Both the position numbers and the translations under genes were made by a program. This document shows, piece after piece, positions 3,001-50,580 of a stretch of DNA of 55,440 nucleotides (position 1 is the first letter of the stretch; every line of letters starts with the position of its first letter). This DNA is from a virus: positions 1 through 55,440 of the IMG/VR virus record IMGVR_UViG_3300008448_011029, one strand, 5' to 3'. The notes beneath the pieces are model-generated. The model saw nothing but the letters and a program-made list of their open reading frames with translations. It was not told where the DNA came from and made no database searches.

Positions 3001-4081
3001 AATAACCTTCTTTAAAAGGATGAAATTCATTTGGCTTTGTGTCTGCAACAACCACAACTTCATTATTAAATGTACTTAAATCTGTATTGAATGTGTTTCC
3101 ATTTGGTACCGGATTTGCACTCATTAACAATGATGCATATTTCCAAAACAAGTCACCAGGAAGATTGATTGTCCAGTTCAAATATCTTGTTGCAGTTCTA
3201 CTTGTTGTATTTGCTGTTGCAGTTATGATTGATGTATTACTTGCAACAACTGTTGGTGTACCAGAAATTATACCAGTAGAGGTATTCATTGACAATCCAG
3301 TTGGCAATCCACTGGAAGTATACAGTACACCATATCCGGCCGCAGAAGTTGCAACTACTGTCACATTTGATATTGGTAAATTTTGTGTTGCACTAGTTGT
3401 TGTGTTGTTTGCTGGTGATGAGAATGAAACAACATCAGTATTAATCGTCAAACTAAAAGAACGAACAGAATCTTGATTTTGTGCATCAGTTGCTTGTACA
3501 GTAAACGAATATGTTGTACTTGAACCATCCACAGGTGCAGTACCAGAAATTGTGCCACCAGAACTTAGTGTCGAACCTGAAGGTAAAGAACCAGAAGATA
3601 ATGCATATGTAATTGGTGCATCACCTGTTGCAACAACTGTTGTGCTGATTGCGGTTGTTTCGTATACAGTACCTAATGAACCAGCTGCTGTGGTAAATGT
3701 TGGTACACCAGAATATACCAAACCTGGTACAAGGATACCAGTACCACCATTTGCATTGGTAACAAAAACGGTATAACTACCAGAACCTAATGCGGGAGAA
3801 CTAAATGTAAGGCGTCCAGAATCCAGGAATGTTACTGCACCTATCGTAGTAGACCCAACCAAAACGGTTGCACCTGGTGCGAAACCTGACCCATACAAAA
3901 CGATAACTTGATTGCCTGCTGGGTCTGCTGCGGTATCATTTGTGTCAACATAAGATCCATCAGTTACCGCAAAACGGGTAACAGTAGGTACCAGGAAAGT
4001 TTGTTGGTTAAAATGTTCACCAACTGTAATAAATCCTGTTGAATCTTTTGCTCTCTTGCCTCTGACACCGGCATTAAACAT
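1..4081 (-). CDS. Giant LamG-repeat adhesin/fibre protein, C-terminus outside window
   Basis: The frame is open from an ATG at 4081 to the left window edge (at least 1,360 residues), so the C-terminus is missing. The start overlaps the upstream stop as TGATG. After a short N-terminal segment comes an IPT/TIG-like domain (about residues 50-115, motif YGSGFAPGATVLVG), then two He_PIG/cadherin-like Ig domains (about 115-300, motifs LPSGSTLSSGGTISGTAP and LPTGLSMNTSTGIISGTP). Five concanavalin-A-like LamG modules follow, each opening with YFDGTGDYL or a variant and FGTGDFTVE.WV, spaced about 580-770 bases apart. LamG_3 domains usually bind glycans or other surface polymers, so a role as a virion adhesin is inferred from the domains and from the neighbouring fibre genes. 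The plus-strand ORFs here are antisense shadows. Confidence 0.85.
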   Translation of the reverse strand, partial: MFNAGVRGKRAKDSTGFITVGEHFNQQTFLVPTVTRFAVTDGSYVDTNDTAADPAGNQVIVLYGSGFAPGATVLVGSTTIGAVTFLDSGRLTFSSPALGSGSYTVFVTNANGGTGILVPGLVYSGVPTFTTAAGSLGTVYETTAISTTVVATGDAPITYALSSGSLPSGSTLSSGGTISGTAPVDGSSTTYSFTVQATDAQNQDSVRSFSLTINTDVVSFSSPANNTTTSATQNLPISNVTVVATSAAGYGVLYTSSGLPTGLSMNTSTGIISGTPTVVASNTSIITATANTTSRTATRYLNWTINLPGDLFWKYASLLMSANPVPNGNTFNTDLSTFNNEVVVVADTKPNEFHPFKEGYYSNYFDGTGDYLAILTNAAFNIGTNSFTVEAWINTSSATQQSIFNISDTASSGYGAVRVQVLSDQTVQWLMGPGGSWGVAVTAGSITLGTWNHIAITRNGSSVYFFINGLQVGTTQTYATSLTTGGTTYIGYNSGTAFGFNGYISNLRFINGTALYTANTTLSTSPLTYVANTSLLTCQSNKLIDNSNNNFTILKGGDTKVNPFSPFNGTPTTVTVPAANNYSMYFDGTGDYLTIPSNSAFAFGTGDFTIEFWVYPNSGANQGIFQQSDTAGGFKASAANSLALNIFTSNAITVYAVNTTHTTSTNKLIFNTWTHLALVRASGVTKLYINGVLETSIGSSGSITDTTNYTGTHVVLGGYYSTSYLWIGYISNYRIVKGTAVYTGNFTVPTSPLAITQSSSANTAALIAVPTNGSSMYFDGTGDYLSVPGNAAFQFTADFTVECWVYLEKVTGYQVIVGQYPGFNVWGWMLQMNNGSTMRAIFNNSVSTGAISASATLAANQWYHVALTRSGTGITLWFNGTSVGTSTLSGNIGTVTDAVWIGNGGSADYVQGYISNLRVIRGTAVYTTTFTPSTTPLTAVTNTSLLTCQSKTSTVIDNSTNAFTITKVGDAAVANTFSPFGTTASFLTAQANTVIDNSSNALTITTNGNAGPARNGPFANTTTVTLVGNEGSVYFDGTGDCLGAESSNGILPADFTVEMWVYLTSSIANQPLVAFGTEVSGRFALLTNASGQLKYGIFGDATEYIYTTIAMVLNTWTHVAFSRTGTNMYAFINGASAGAVRTLSGSRGNGTRISVGASAARDSSMTGYLSNVRVVNGTGLYTSAFVPSWAPLTPVANTVLLTAQTNLSSNTKVIVDESNINSVVTGFGNTNLGSFSPFGSSWSAYFDGANDFLSIPTSSSFNFGTGDFTVECWVNWSSTTTDRGIISRYAGASSGWALRYDNTSGPTLNWINGDTSILIASHTPIAGTWYHYAVCRSGTTLRIFINGTQSASTTYSGNQD

Positions 4082-4440
4082 CAACTGATCTCCTCAAACG
4101 AACACACTGCTTGTAATATACTATTGGTACTGGCCGTTAATCTCAATTCATCACCTTCTAACAGATAAATGGAAAGTGTTTTGTCAATGGCTGTGAAAGA
4201 TGTATCTGCTGCAACCGAAATGGTACTGACCAATTTATATGCAGTCGCACTTCTATACAAATCAACTGTTATGTCCGCTGCACTGGTTCCATGAATATTG
4301 GAAATAATCAAAGAATTAATTTTTAATATTTTACCACTGGATGAAGGATTGTTTGCAATAGAAGTCGCCGATGTTGTCACCGATTGTACTTGTGTGTTTC
4401 CATTAATTGTTGTTAGTGCTGCTATGTTTGGGTTTGCCAT
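4081..4440 (-). CDS. Small virion structural protein (fibre-cluster type)
   Basis: 119 residues, beginning MANPNIAALTTINGNTQ. It is rich in Ser, Thr and beta-branched residues with no helix-forming stretch, suggesting a single small beta-sandwich. Its layout (short N-terminal arm, then alternating beta segments such as SLIISNIHGTSAADITVDLY) resembles the 108-residue protein at 6986-7312, which suggests a paralogous pair of capping or accessory proteins. It sits between a repeat-built fibre and the giant LamG protein, and its TGA stop overlaps the LamG start codon, so the two are probably translationally coupled. No enzyme motif is visible. Function as a structural or decoration protein is inferred from context and from similar small proteins beside fibres in marine T4-like phages. 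Confidence 0.7.
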   Translation of the reverse strand: MANPNIAALTTINGNTQVQSVTTSATSIANNPSSSGKILKINSLIISNIHGTSAADITVDLYRSATAYKLVSTISVAADTSFTAIDKTLSIYLLEGDELRLTASTNSILQAVCSFEEIS

Positions 4441-48488: not shown

Positions 48489-49025
48489 TTAGAATCCTAC
48501 GGATACTGTAAGTCCTACTGCACGTTCTTGAATGTCTTGATAGCTTTGGCTAACACCCAAACCAACAGATACTTTGCTGATAACTGGCATGTCGTAAGTA
48601 GCAAATACTACAGATTGTTTTGGATTTGCGCTGTCCCAGTTTACACGGGTCTTAGCACCAGCCATGGCATAACCAGGACCAACCTTAACGCCAGCGTTTG
48701 CACCAACTAGACCATACTCATATGGTTTTGCACCGTTACCACCATTATCGAATCCAACACCAACAAATGGGTTGATACCGAAAACTGTCTTACCTGCGGT
48801 AAGTTCCAAACTATTGAACATAGATTGGTTATCATTGGTACGTGCATTACGATTTTGTAATCCAAGATTCAAACCACCTAATGTAGTACCAGCACGAACA
48901 TATTGTGCGATACTTTGTTGGTTGCTTACTCGGTTAGTAACTTGGTCAACACCATACGAAACAAAACCACCGGCCTGTGCGGCTGCGGCGACTGCAATTA
49001 AACTTGCGATTGCGATTTTCTTCAT
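48489..49025 (-). CDS. Phage-encoded outer-membrane beta-barrel protein
   Basis: 178 residues. A Sec signal peptide (MKKIAIASLIAVAAAAQA, cleavage before GGF) is followed by alternating amphipathic segments (AQYVRAGTTLGGLNLGLQNR, SLELTAGKTVFGINPFVGVG, KVGPGYAMAGAKTRVNW, KQSVVFATYDM, SKVSVGLGVSQ). It ends VGLTVSVGF, with the terminal Phe used by the BAM complex. This suggests a barrel of roughly eight strands. It may block a receptor (superinfection exclusion) as proposed for other phage outer-membrane proteins, or alter permeability; neither is shown. It has its own promoter and a structured leader. Confidence 0.75.
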   Translation of the reverse strand: MKKIAIASLIAVAAAAQAGGFVSYGVDQVTNRVSNQQSIAQYVRAGTTLGGLNLGLQNRNARTNDNQSMFNSLELTAGKTVFGINPFVGVGFDNGGNGAKPYEYGLVGANAGVKVGPGYAMAGAKTRVNWDSANPKQSVVFATYDMPVISKVSVGLGVSQSYQDIQERAVGLTVSVGF

Positions 49026-49040
49026 TAAAACTCCTTAGTT

Positions 49041-49079
49041 AAAAAAATGGTTGGTTATTCTGTTACGAGGAAACCAACC
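49041..49079 (-). terminator. Hairpin plus T7 tract in the OMP leader (possible attenuator)
   Basis: GGTTGGTT (49072-49079 region on the minus strand) pairs with AACCAACC across a 15-base loop, followed at once by TTTTTTT and then the AAGGAG of the OMP gene. It is a terminator-like structure standing between promoter and start codon. It may reduce read-through from the tmRNA side or attenuate the OMP. Confidence 0.6.
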
Positions 49080-49088
49080 GAAACCCTA

Positions 49089-49120
49089 AGTAAATGCGAA
49101 CTTGAAAGTTTGCTTTTACT
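49089..49120 (-). promoter_or_regulatory. 5'-end hairpin of the OMP leader
   Basis: AGTAAAAGCAAACTT and AAGTTCGCATTTACT (minus strand) form a 15-bp stem with 2 mismatches and a 2-base loop. The predicted transcription start from the promoter at 49127-49155 falls at about 49120, the first base of the stem. Such a 5' hairpin can protect mRNA. It also shares CGCATTTACTT with the intergenic element at 33863. Confidence 0.5.
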
Positions 49121-49126
49121 AAATAC

Positions 49127-49155
49127 ATTATATATCTTGGAGGATAATAATGCAA
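49127..49155 (-). promoter_or_regulatory. Sigma-70-like promoter for the OMP gene
   Basis: TTGCAT (49155-49150), a 17-base spacer and TATAAT (49132-49127) on the minus strand. The -10 box is perfect and the -35 keeps TTG. The -35 box coincides with the first codons of the GIY-YIG gene on the other strand, so strong transcription here would oppose that gene. Confidence 0.5.
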
Positions 49156-49590
49156 TACTTTTTATACATCTGGTACGACAATTGCCGAAAAATGTTCTAT
49201 GTTGGTATGCATGAAGGACAAATAACCGATGGTTATGTATCTTCATCCCGTTGGTTTAACGGAGAATATCAATATAGACCAAATGATTTCAAACGTAAAA
49301 TTATCAAAACCTTTAATGATAGGAAGTCAGCCAGAAAAGAAGAGGTAAGACTACTTCGTATGATTAAAGAATCTGAGTTTGGTAAAAAATACTACAATCT
49401 CAAAAATGGTCGTAAGAAAGGTTCTATTCCTATAAACAAAGGTAAACCAATGTCAATTGAACAACGACAAAAACTTAGTTTAATTAAACTTGGAAAACCT
49501 TCTGCAAGAAAAGGCATTCCAAATAAAGTTAAAGTAGATTGTTTGGTTAATAAGGAACAACCTACAAATCCCCATTCGATTACCGTTTAA
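49150..49590 (+). CDS. GIY-YIG endonuclease with NUMOD3 motif (homing type)
   Basis: 146 residues. The N-terminus is a GIY-YIG-like module (FLYIWYDNCRKMFYVGMHEG, in which YI and YVG mark the two strands). A helix with SSSRWFNGEY and KSARKEEVRLLR follows. Residues about 100-130 hold a NUMOD3 DNA-binding repeat (NKGKPMSIEQRQKLSLIKLG, KPSARKG). The combination is typical of free-standing phage homing endonucleases. It has a GGAGG ribosome binding site. It is the only plus-strand gene in this neighbourhood, and its stop codon overlaps the tag stop codon of the tmRNA on the opposite strand. Activity cannot be judged; the Arg and Glu of the canonical active site are plausibly R (SARK region) and E (KEEVR). 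Confidence 0.8.
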   Translation: MQYFLYIWYDNCRKMFYVGMHEGQITDGYVSSSRWFNGEYQYRPNDFKRKIIKTFNDRKSARKEEVRLLRMIKESEFGKKYYNLKNGRKKGSIPINKGKPMSIEQRQKLSLIKLGKPSARKGIPNKVKVDCLVNKEQPTNPHSITV

Positions 49591-49622
49591 GCGGCAAGAG
49601 CGAAGCGGCTATCATTAGCTGC
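49587..49622 (-). other. tmRNA tag reading frame (AANDSRFALAA)
   Basis: With the resume codon GCA at 49622-49620 the tag reads AANDSRFALAA, then TAA. The ending ALAA and the AND start resemble proteobacterial tags (E. coli ANDENYALAA) and differ from alphaproteobacterial and cyanobacterial tags. The exact resume codon is inferred; an earlier GTA AAC is possible. The TAA overlaps the GIY-YIG stop codon on the other strand. Confidence 0.8.
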
Positions 49623-49705
49623 GTTTACTTTGATTTAGTTTTAACATCTTCTCTGATGAGCTGTCCACTTCTGTACTTGTTGCCCTGTCGAAACTATGCA
49701 GCCCC

Positions 49706-49791
49706 ATCAAAAGTATACTGGTTTGGATTATTTGGATGTCCGTGATACCTTAGTCATCTTCATTATCGCACGGCGCAGACCTTTATACTTT
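49706..49791 (-). other. Intervening segment of the permuted tmRNA
   Basis: 86 bases between the acceptor CCA and the 5' GGGG of the coding piece. The ends (AAAGTATA after CCA and TATACTTTT before GATGGGG) can form a 9-bp helix when the A of CCA is included, holding the two pieces together before processing. In known permuted tmRNAs this segment is removed, leaving two RNA pieces. Confidence 0.75.
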
Positions 49792-49862
49792 TGGTGGAGC
49801 TGGGGGGATTTGCACCCCCGTCCAGAACACTTTTCTAGTTGCTTCATACAACCATATCTTCA

Positions 49863-49891
49863 ATTATAACACAATAAAAATGTGTTGTCAA
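49863..49891 (-). promoter_or_regulatory. Perfect sigma-70 promoter for the tmRNA
   Basis: TTGACA (49891-49886), a 17-base spacer and TATAAT (49868-49863) on the minus strand. The TGA of the upstream tail-protein gene is inside the -35 box, exactly as at the gp32 promoter, and both have TTATACTT just upstream. The expected start is near 49856, just before the acceptor piece. Confidence 0.88.
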
Positions 49892-50580
49892 GTATAAAAT
49901 TCAAAGTAACCATATTTTCCACGAACGGGCCACACACCAACATTAAAACTAATGTATTGCATCCAACCCGCACCAAGGCCGGCGCCACCCGCTGGCCAAG
50001 TGGTGGTCGTAAAAAATCTATTAGAATTGGATGAAGTTGCATTACTAACTTGAAGTTGACCGTCTTGATAAATTCTCCATTTTGTTGCCCAATGAGCTGG
50101 CAAAGCAGAATTTGACCATATTCTTATTCTTGTTGAATTAGCGTATGAATAAGGTGCGGAATAGTGTTCAATATCCGCAAGACACCATTGATAACCATCT
50201 CTATATCTCATTGGATTTGAAAAATTTGGTCGAGCAGCTATAGACCCATCATCATCCAACCAAGAATATGATTTAACAAAATAAAAACCATCACTTTTCA
50301 ATTCTCCCATATACCACCCAACTCTTTGTGATGACTGGCCATAATAATCACTGAATCTCAAGTTGACTGGTGTTCCTATTGTTCCGGAAGAACCACCAGA
50401 ATAGGCTCCACTCGGTACGAATCCACTATCACCAAATTGAAAAAGATTCCTTGATACCTTACTATCAAAGCCAGGCACAAAAGAACCAAAAGATATATTT
50501 GATCCTGCACTCGGTGCCGAACCATTAAATTCTGTGGCAATATCATACATAGAAATTGCTCCACTTGATTGTAATGCCAT
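49888..50580 (-). CDS. Short tail/fibre protein of the MALQSSGAIS family
   Basis: 230 residues. The N-terminus MALQSSGAISMYDIATEFNG is the usual opening of a family of phage structural proteins (often MALQSSGAIS, then DI..EFGG). A FSDYYGQSS segment at about 75-85 is also typical. The C-terminal 140 residues form a beta domain rich in aromatics (GWYMGELKSDGFYFVKSYSW, TKWRIYQDGQLQVSN), ending YGYFEFYT, and may bind a ligand or surface. It is remote from the main structural cluster. An AATAAATA motif upstream suggests late expression, while its stop codon lies in the tmRNA promoter. Confidence 0.75.
   Translation of the reverse strand: MALQSSGAISMYDIATEFNGSAPSAGSNISFGSFVPGFDSKVSRNLFQFGDSGFVPSGAYSGGSSGTIGTPVNLRFSDYYGQSSQRVGWYMGELKSDGFYFVKSYSWLDDDGSIAARPNFSNPMRYRDGYQWCLADIEHYSAPYSYANSTRIRIWSNSALPAHWATKWRIYQDGQLQVSNATSSNSNRFFTTTTWPAGGAGLGAGWMQYISFNVGVWPVRGKYGYFEFYT

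Follow-up and report, generated by a model that had tools for sequence, protein, structure and literature searches.

A two-piece tmRNA gene of a T4-like aquatic phage with a 3' half probably taken over by a homing-endonuclease element

Mobile ORFs that carry replacement gene ends have been described in fungal mitochondria, where they occur in Allomyces atp6 and in Glomus atp6, atp9 (a GIY-YIG case), cox2 and nad3 (PMC3630166). In phages, the region around the T4 endonuclease gene segB shows biased inheritance through the endonuclease (PMC2988022, PMC13096335). Two-piece tmRNAs of phages were reported in 2022: the OM43 phage Melnitz carries one (Buchholz 2022, PMC9004378), two-piece forms make up 53 of 133 unique phage tmRNA structures, with 50 of the 53 coming from marine or aquatic phages, and a permuted tmRNA is present in 17 of the 47 contigs that cluster with Melnitz (PMC9004378). 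A two-piece tmRNA in a phage is thus already known and is no novelty in itself. On this point an earlier reading of the DNA, made from its letters only (hereafter the sequence-only reading), is contradicted: it was aware of no well-studied phage examples, whereas such tmRNAs are found in Melnitz, in Mosig and HTVC008M, and in phages of Stenotrophomonas and Xanthomonas.

Here we analysed a complete IMG/VR virus record of 55,440 bases, classed as linear; this whole stretch is called the window. We propose, with a probability of roughly 0.8, that it contains a working two-piece tmRNA of a T4-like aquatic phage and that a homing-endonuclease element has usurped the 3' half of this tmRNA.

The permuted tmRNA and its phage

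Among the products encoded in the window are PhoH, an exonuclease and T4-like baseplate proteins. For its baseplate wedge protein, the nearest sequences are those of Pelagibacter phage HTVC008M, Methylophilales phage Melnitz and Pelagibacter phage Mosig, with 40-42% identity. In all three of these nearest cultured relatives, a permuted tmRNA scores above the cut-off of the Rfam model RF04321.

The tmRNA gene is on the minus strand. It is preceded by a sigma-70 promoter at 49863-49891 (TTGACA at 49891-49886, a 17-nt spacer and TATAAT at 49868-49863) that matches the consensus at 12 of 12 positions. The -35 box overlaps the stop codon of an upstream ORF (49888-50580), and the TTGACA-17-TATAAT arrangement is preserved in the related loci L069 and L074 despite differing upstream DNA. 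Between the two boxes, the spacer holds an inverted repeat, ACACA...TGTGT (49869-49885), which is possibly an operator or a chance occurrence. The acceptor piece, aligned from position 1 of RF04321 onwards, is found at 49792-49853; it comprises a P2 strand, the T-arm and the 3' acceptor strand CAGCTCC followed by A and CCA, and ends at 49792. Next comes an intervening sequence of 86 nt (49706-49791), the ends of which are complementary over 8 bp (AAAGTATA/TATACTTT). Helices of other sequence occupy the same position in most relatives, and we infer that this segment is cut out of the mature tmRNA. The 5' part of the coding piece (49623-49705, delimited with RF04321) contains the acceptor strand GGGGCTG, the D-loop TTTCGAC and P2, and runs to the resume codon; it is 97-98% identical in relatives that lack the endonuclease discussed below. 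GGGGCTG, starting at 49705, pairs with CAGCTCC and forms a G-U at pair 3. The tag frame AANDSRFALAA, ended by a stop codon, follows at 49587-49622 (GCA GCT AAT GAT AGC CGC TTC GCT CTT GCC GCT TAA), and a 3' hairpin, hereafter type B, closes the coding piece at 49534-49565. Hence, the window tmRNA has both the hydrophobic, ALAA-type tag end and the G3-U acceptor pair.

ARAGORN calls a permuted tmRNA with the tag AANDSRFALAA. In the Rfam scan, the locus passes tmRNA_permuted (RF04321; 111.1 bits, gathering 47, E 6.9e-21) and beta_tmRNA (RF01850; 98.0 bits, gathering 84, E 1.3e-28), while the alpha and cyano tmRNA models stay below threshold. The precursor folds somewhat better than shuffled sequences (z -2.0). 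With the acceptor half preceding the coding half and scores above the curated cut-offs, the locus belongs to the permuted class. Because ARAGORN, two Rfam models and covarying relatives agree, we assign the minus strand of 49534-49891 to a circularly permuted tmRNA; the outcome with the beta, alpha and cyano models supports the betaproteobacterial type. The sequence-only reading had proposed a circularly permuted tmRNA, and had named a lack of any match to a permuted-tmRNA covariance model as what would speak against it. The perfect promoter, the acceptor end upstream of the 5' end, the 86-base spacer with complementary ends, the G3-U acceptor stem, the D-loop and the tag were all located as it had described them. 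The extent it gave, 49570-49891, holds for these features and stops short of the true 3' end, as it misses the hairpin of the coding piece. tmRNA activity requires host SmpB. Presumably, the window tmRNA does ordinary trans-translation with host SmpB and contributes to keeping ribosomes free during infection.

A pattern scan of IMG/VR for permuted tmRNA gave 97 stretches. In a scan of 84,980 bacterial and archaeal genomes, a 24-base pattern specific to the window tmRNA had no match; the sole match of a general tmRNA pattern in these genomes (L107) was a one-piece tmRNA and was therefore rejected. The sequence-only reading had suggested, among other things, a host gene captured by the phage. 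Since the exact long-spacer form is absent from the 84,980-genome scan and close relatives are plentiful in viral contigs, such a capture would at best be ancient. By megablast, the core of the window locus had no match among phages. A possible match of 90-95% in Pseudomonas phages was discarded, as it comes down to 34 nt of T-arm, located in an integrase region or a prophage attachment site.

Two phages recorded on Xanthomonadales hosts, Stenotrophomonas phage Yut2 (L002) and Xanthomonas phage Rb1 (L003), also carry a permuted tmRNA, with RF04321 scores of 119 and 103 bits, respectively; that of Yut2 passes the beta tmRNA model as well. Their Xanthomonadales hosts have a one-piece tmRNA. For L003, ARAGORN additionally reports a wrong one-piece tmRNA. 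The permuted tmRNAs of L088, L078, L089 and L095 are not reported by ARAGORN, although Rfam finds that of L088 at 120 bits; counts based on ARAGORN are therefore too low. In L057, L022 and L031, a 24-aa PqqA-like ORF (MKWSTPTATDMRFGFEITMYIANR) lies directly 3' of the tmRNA. PQQ precursor genes would suit methylotroph hosts, as for Melnitz.

An antisense endonuclease gene and two tmRNA 3' ends

A gene of 146 codons for a predicted GIY-YIG/NUMOD3 homing endonuclease occupies 49150-49590 on the plus strand. It is antisense to and convergent with the tmRNA gene and overlaps its end; its own stop codon and that of the tag share bases. This gene and the displaced old 3' end described below (49048-49590) lie outside the coordinates given by the sequence-only reading. 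The protein matches the homing endonucleases of PHROG 314 (E 5e-12) and reads YIWYD..FYVG..DGYVSSSRW..E, followed by NUMOD3-like repeats. Because the single protein has neither a Pfam match nor a meaningful PDB sequence match, its assignment needed family context. Across the family, Pfam detects GIY-YIG in 19 of 24 members and NUMOD3 in 17 of 24, the window protein itself being among those without a match, and residues Y6, Y17, G19, R43 and E65 are invariant in more than 30 intact reading frames. In the AlphaFold model, residues 1-80 reach about 90 pLDDT. Comparison of this model with the PDB places the I-TevI catalytic domain in the top three positions (probability 0.91, 0.91 and 0.84), with weak E values of 0.16-0.35. 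The predicted endonuclease has, on these grounds, a GIY-YIG catalytic domain with its conserved residues.

Upstream of the endonuclease gene, T4-late-like motifs (ACTAAATA; TATAAATA in L140) might point to late expression. A hairpin, GCGAACTTGAAAGTTTGC, then TTTTA, is also located upstream of the gene on its strand (49096-49113) and recurs, with changed sequence, in other endonuclease-positive loci. Related endonucleases are found in the isolate phages phiM12, phiN3 and RHph_I1_18, where the gene is not beside a tmRNA.

In relatives without the endonuclease, the alignment with the window reaches the start of the tag and resumes at 49088, from where it continues downwards. The gap between the aligned parts is about 39 nt in these relatives versus about 532 in the window. 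In the endonuclease-less relatives, another hairpin, type A, is positioned directly 3' of the tag. Its stem of 8 pairs is 100% paired, 5 pairs show two-sided changes, and its covariation score was equalled by 0 of 500 shuffles. Directly 3' of this hairpin stands the next gene, which in the window lies at 48489-49025 on the minus strand and encodes an exported-protein-like product of 178 aa (MKKIAIAS...). The order in the window is tag, type B hairpin, endonuclease, remnant of an older tag and full type A hairpin. The remnant (49090-49120, minus strand; AGTAAA.GCAAAC...AGTTCGCATT) was recognized by alignment with the tags of endonuclease-less relatives and with the better kept remnants of L140 and L118; it adjoins the endonuclease's own start region. 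The displaced type A hairpin (49048-49089, minus strand), about 500 nt beyond the present tag, is recovered by a covariance model built from endonuclease-less relatives with 72.7 bits (E 4.4e-15). The best preserved old tag is that of L140, which still contains CAGTTCGCATTGGCAGCCTAA (QFALAA, stop) as well as an intact old 3' end. The alignments and the L140 remnant therefore place the insertion point inside the tag.

Compared with the tag of L088 (ANDSRFALAA), that of the window is the same peptide bar one extra alanine, and 8 of the 9 codons after the resume alanine differ, synonymously (GCTAATGATAGCCGCTTCGCTCTTGCCGCT in the window, GCAAACGACTCACGTTTCGCATTGGCTGCC in L088). From the second codon on, the tag is by this comparison a replacement that came with the element, and so is the type B hairpin. 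The latter has an 8-pair stem that is 100% paired in 8 sequences, a set made of the tag-adjoining hairpins of types B and D in endonuclease-positive loci. With two-sided changes in 4 of the 8 pairs, the replacement 3' end looks functional. A type B hairpin without an endonuclease is present in L161 and L162; between the window and L162, identity is 99% over tag and hairpin and 76% over the 5' half. A second, independent case of displacement is found in L133, the displaced hairpin of which is the one native to its endonuclease-less relative L043. The displaced hairpins likewise keep their base pairing and may therefore have a use of their own rather than be dead remnants. Overall, the alignments indicate that about 490 extra bases, consisting of new tag codons, a new 3' hairpin and the endonuclease gene, replaced the end of the tmRNA.

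The same arrangement could be read as a 500-nt intron or intervening sequence of the tmRNA, either a group I intron with its endonuclease or an extra spacer, with the mature RNA using the downstream type A hairpin. That hairpin is indeed preserved, and some tmRNA genes are known to harbour group I introns with endonuclease genes (PMC11915505). However, the introns described there lie in the T-loop, whereas the insert of the window lies in and after the tag. In addition, Rfam cmscan gave no group I intron match in the window, the insert is preceded by a complete tag with its own covarying 3' hairpin, and the old tag remnant is broken. An intron is thus very improbable. An integrase island targeting the tmRNA gene and regenerating its 3' end would leave the same geometry, since tmRNA islands restore the gene and leave a displaced fragment (PMC4383910). 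Here, the element is only about 490 nt long and encodes nothing but the endonuclease, there is no integrase between the functional and the displaced 3' ends, and the two flanking tags do not form identical repeats; we give this origin almost no weight.

Recurrence across backbones and signs of movement

The relatives compared with the window locus all come from metagenome assemblies. With only the endonuclease protein as query, 57 loci were retrieved, 54 of which were counted after leaving out L161-L163, where only the antisense tail matches. In 42 of the 54, a permuted tmRNA detected by Rfam or ARAGORN adjoins the endonuclease in convergent orientation. In four further loci (L149-L152), the coding half adjoins the endonuclease and the acceptor half is about 400 nt further on, which brings the total to 46 of 54. 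Two of the remaining eight loci end at a contig edge, and six distant ones are elsewhere. The 46 loci form 22 flank clusters at 80% identity and 7 at any similarity. In the pattern-based sample, the endonuclease is present at 5 of 81 ARAGORN-called tmRNAs. Of the 25 endonuclease-positive loci that could be tested, 18 have a displaced type A hairpin, versus 6 of 107 endonuclease-negative ones (Fisher value 6.5e-12, descriptive only because the loci are not independent). The six endonuclease-negative loci have other small genes between their two hairpins; this endonuclease is therefore not the only source of second 3' ends.

These figures bear on a simpler account, in which a plain phage permuted tmRNA has an unrelated free-standing endonuclease as its neighbour and the latter travels as a passenger of ordinary homologous exchange in the conserved tmRNA. 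The conserved 5' half of the tmRNA would offer homology for such exchange, and in L209, L215, L059 and L057 other small genes, without an endonuclease, are located between two 3' hairpins. From a random neighbour, however, one would expect neither a displaced old tag and hairpin beyond the endonuclease nor an identical insertion point within the tag across many backbones. The overlapping stop codons of tag and endonuclease argue in the same direction, as does the repeated finding of this layout, at 46 of 54 loci and in 22 flank clusters. We consider a passenger endonuclease unlikely and favour a homing element that carries its own tmRNA end.

Movement of such an element is suggested by a pair of loci, L069 and the endonuclease-less L088. 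Upstream to the tag, they are 100% identical over 5.9 kb (blastn), with 0 mismatches in 2,620 aligned positions. From the tag downstream, L069 has the endonuclease and shows 0 mismatches in 900 positions to the window versus 50 in 894 to L088. The same junction is present in L012, from another metagenome, with 2 mismatches in 2,564 positions upstream to L088 and 14 in 898 downstream to the window; an assembly chimera as the source of the L069 junction was set aside for this reason. The pair has the pattern that would be expected of homing with one-sided co-conversion, and alone it does not fix the direction. In L161, a type B end is followed directly by a type A hairpin without an endonuclease, which looks like the scar of an endonuclease loss.

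Other cassettes are found at permuted tmRNA genes. In L149-L152 (about 3680-4090) and in L143/L144, the tmRNA spacer is 279-377 nt long and a protein gene lies between the acceptor and coding halves (an ORF of 123 aa in L149; a cysteine-rich one of 87 aa in L143). Standard tools miss or stretch these tmRNAs. In L215/L217 (3935-4649), L209 (2690-3039) and L059 (223-774), a small gene, exported-protein-like or a 74-aa ORF, separates the tmRNA 3' hairpin from a second copy, and there is no endonuclease. In L215, a remnant of a tag (AYAQALAA, stop) accompanies the second copy. The end of the tmRNA seems to serve cassettes in general as a docking site.

Proposed mechanism and comparison with known systems

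What the sequences themselves display is the tmRNA, an intact endonuclease family, a displaced 3' end, recurrence over many backbones and a recombinant pair; that the endonuclease cleaves and homes, that recoding protects the element and that the tmRNA is active is what we infer from them. In the mechanism that we propose, the element would consist of the recoded tag sequence, the new 3' hairpin and the antisense GIY-YIG/NUMOD3 endonuclease gene. During co-infection, the endonuclease would attack the tag, or its vicinity, in those tmRNA genes of related phages that lack an endonuclease, and the break would be repaired with the donor as template, so that the element is copied along with its flanks. 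A complete tmRNA would be regenerated by the tag and 3' hairpin acquired in this way, and the changed codons would shield the new copy from cutting. The recipient's own tag end and hairpin would be pushed about 490 nt downstream, where they would decay.

More generally, it seems likely that phage permuted tmRNAs are a docking site for tag-inserting homing-endonuclease elements that rebuild the RNA by means of a recoded tag and a 3' hairpin of foreign origin, and thereby exchange proteolysis tags, along with linked cargo genes, between aquatic phages. It would be the first known case of a homing element that restores the end of a gene for a structured RNA: we found no homing element rebuilding a tmRNA or other RNA gene in the literature on tmRNA and phage homing endonucleases, as covered here with few subscription journals or preprints. 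A selfish endonuclease would thus sit in a functional RNA gene without an intron, by carrying a new gene end. Such an element would also explain in concrete terms how phages exchange tmRNA tags and 3' ends, turn the tmRNA gene into a marker for gene flow among phages, and provide compact endonuclease-target pairs with natural resistant and sensitive alleles.

The Melnitz tmRNA is, as in the window, a permuted tmRNA in a T4-like aquatic phage. Its authors place it with Alphaproteobacteria, whereas the window tmRNA matches the beta model; they also report a glutamine riboswitch, which we count as a further difference from the window, and a term search of that article showed no endonuclease insertion (PMC9004378). 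The group I introns described for tmRNA genes are likewise mobile DNA in such genes, but the window element differs in position and mechanism and is no intron (PMC11915505). The integrase islands regenerate the gene and leave a displaced fragment, as here, but the window element has no integrase (PMC4383910).

The nearest phage relatives of the window element are the T4 Seg proteins, especially SegB in the tRNA cluster, which are likewise phage GIY-YIG endonucleases tied to small RNA genes (PMC2988022, PMC13096335). SegB differs in that it lies between tRNA genes and in that these articles, the main texts of which do not contain the word tmRNA, do not describe it as an insertion that restores the end of an RNA gene.

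The nearest design is that of the fungal mitochondrial mobile ORFs. There, the host gene is completed by a 3' end with synonymous differences that arrives with an endonuclease element, and the native end is displaced downstream (PMC3630166). The window likewise has a new gene end in phase and a native end downstream of the endonuclease. Unlike the fungal host genes, which are mitochondrial and code for proteins, the host gene of the window is a phage non-coding RNA; in addition, the replacement in the window includes a structured RNA 3' end and its endonuclease gene is antisense. The window element is thus not a member of the fungal group, but it would work alike.
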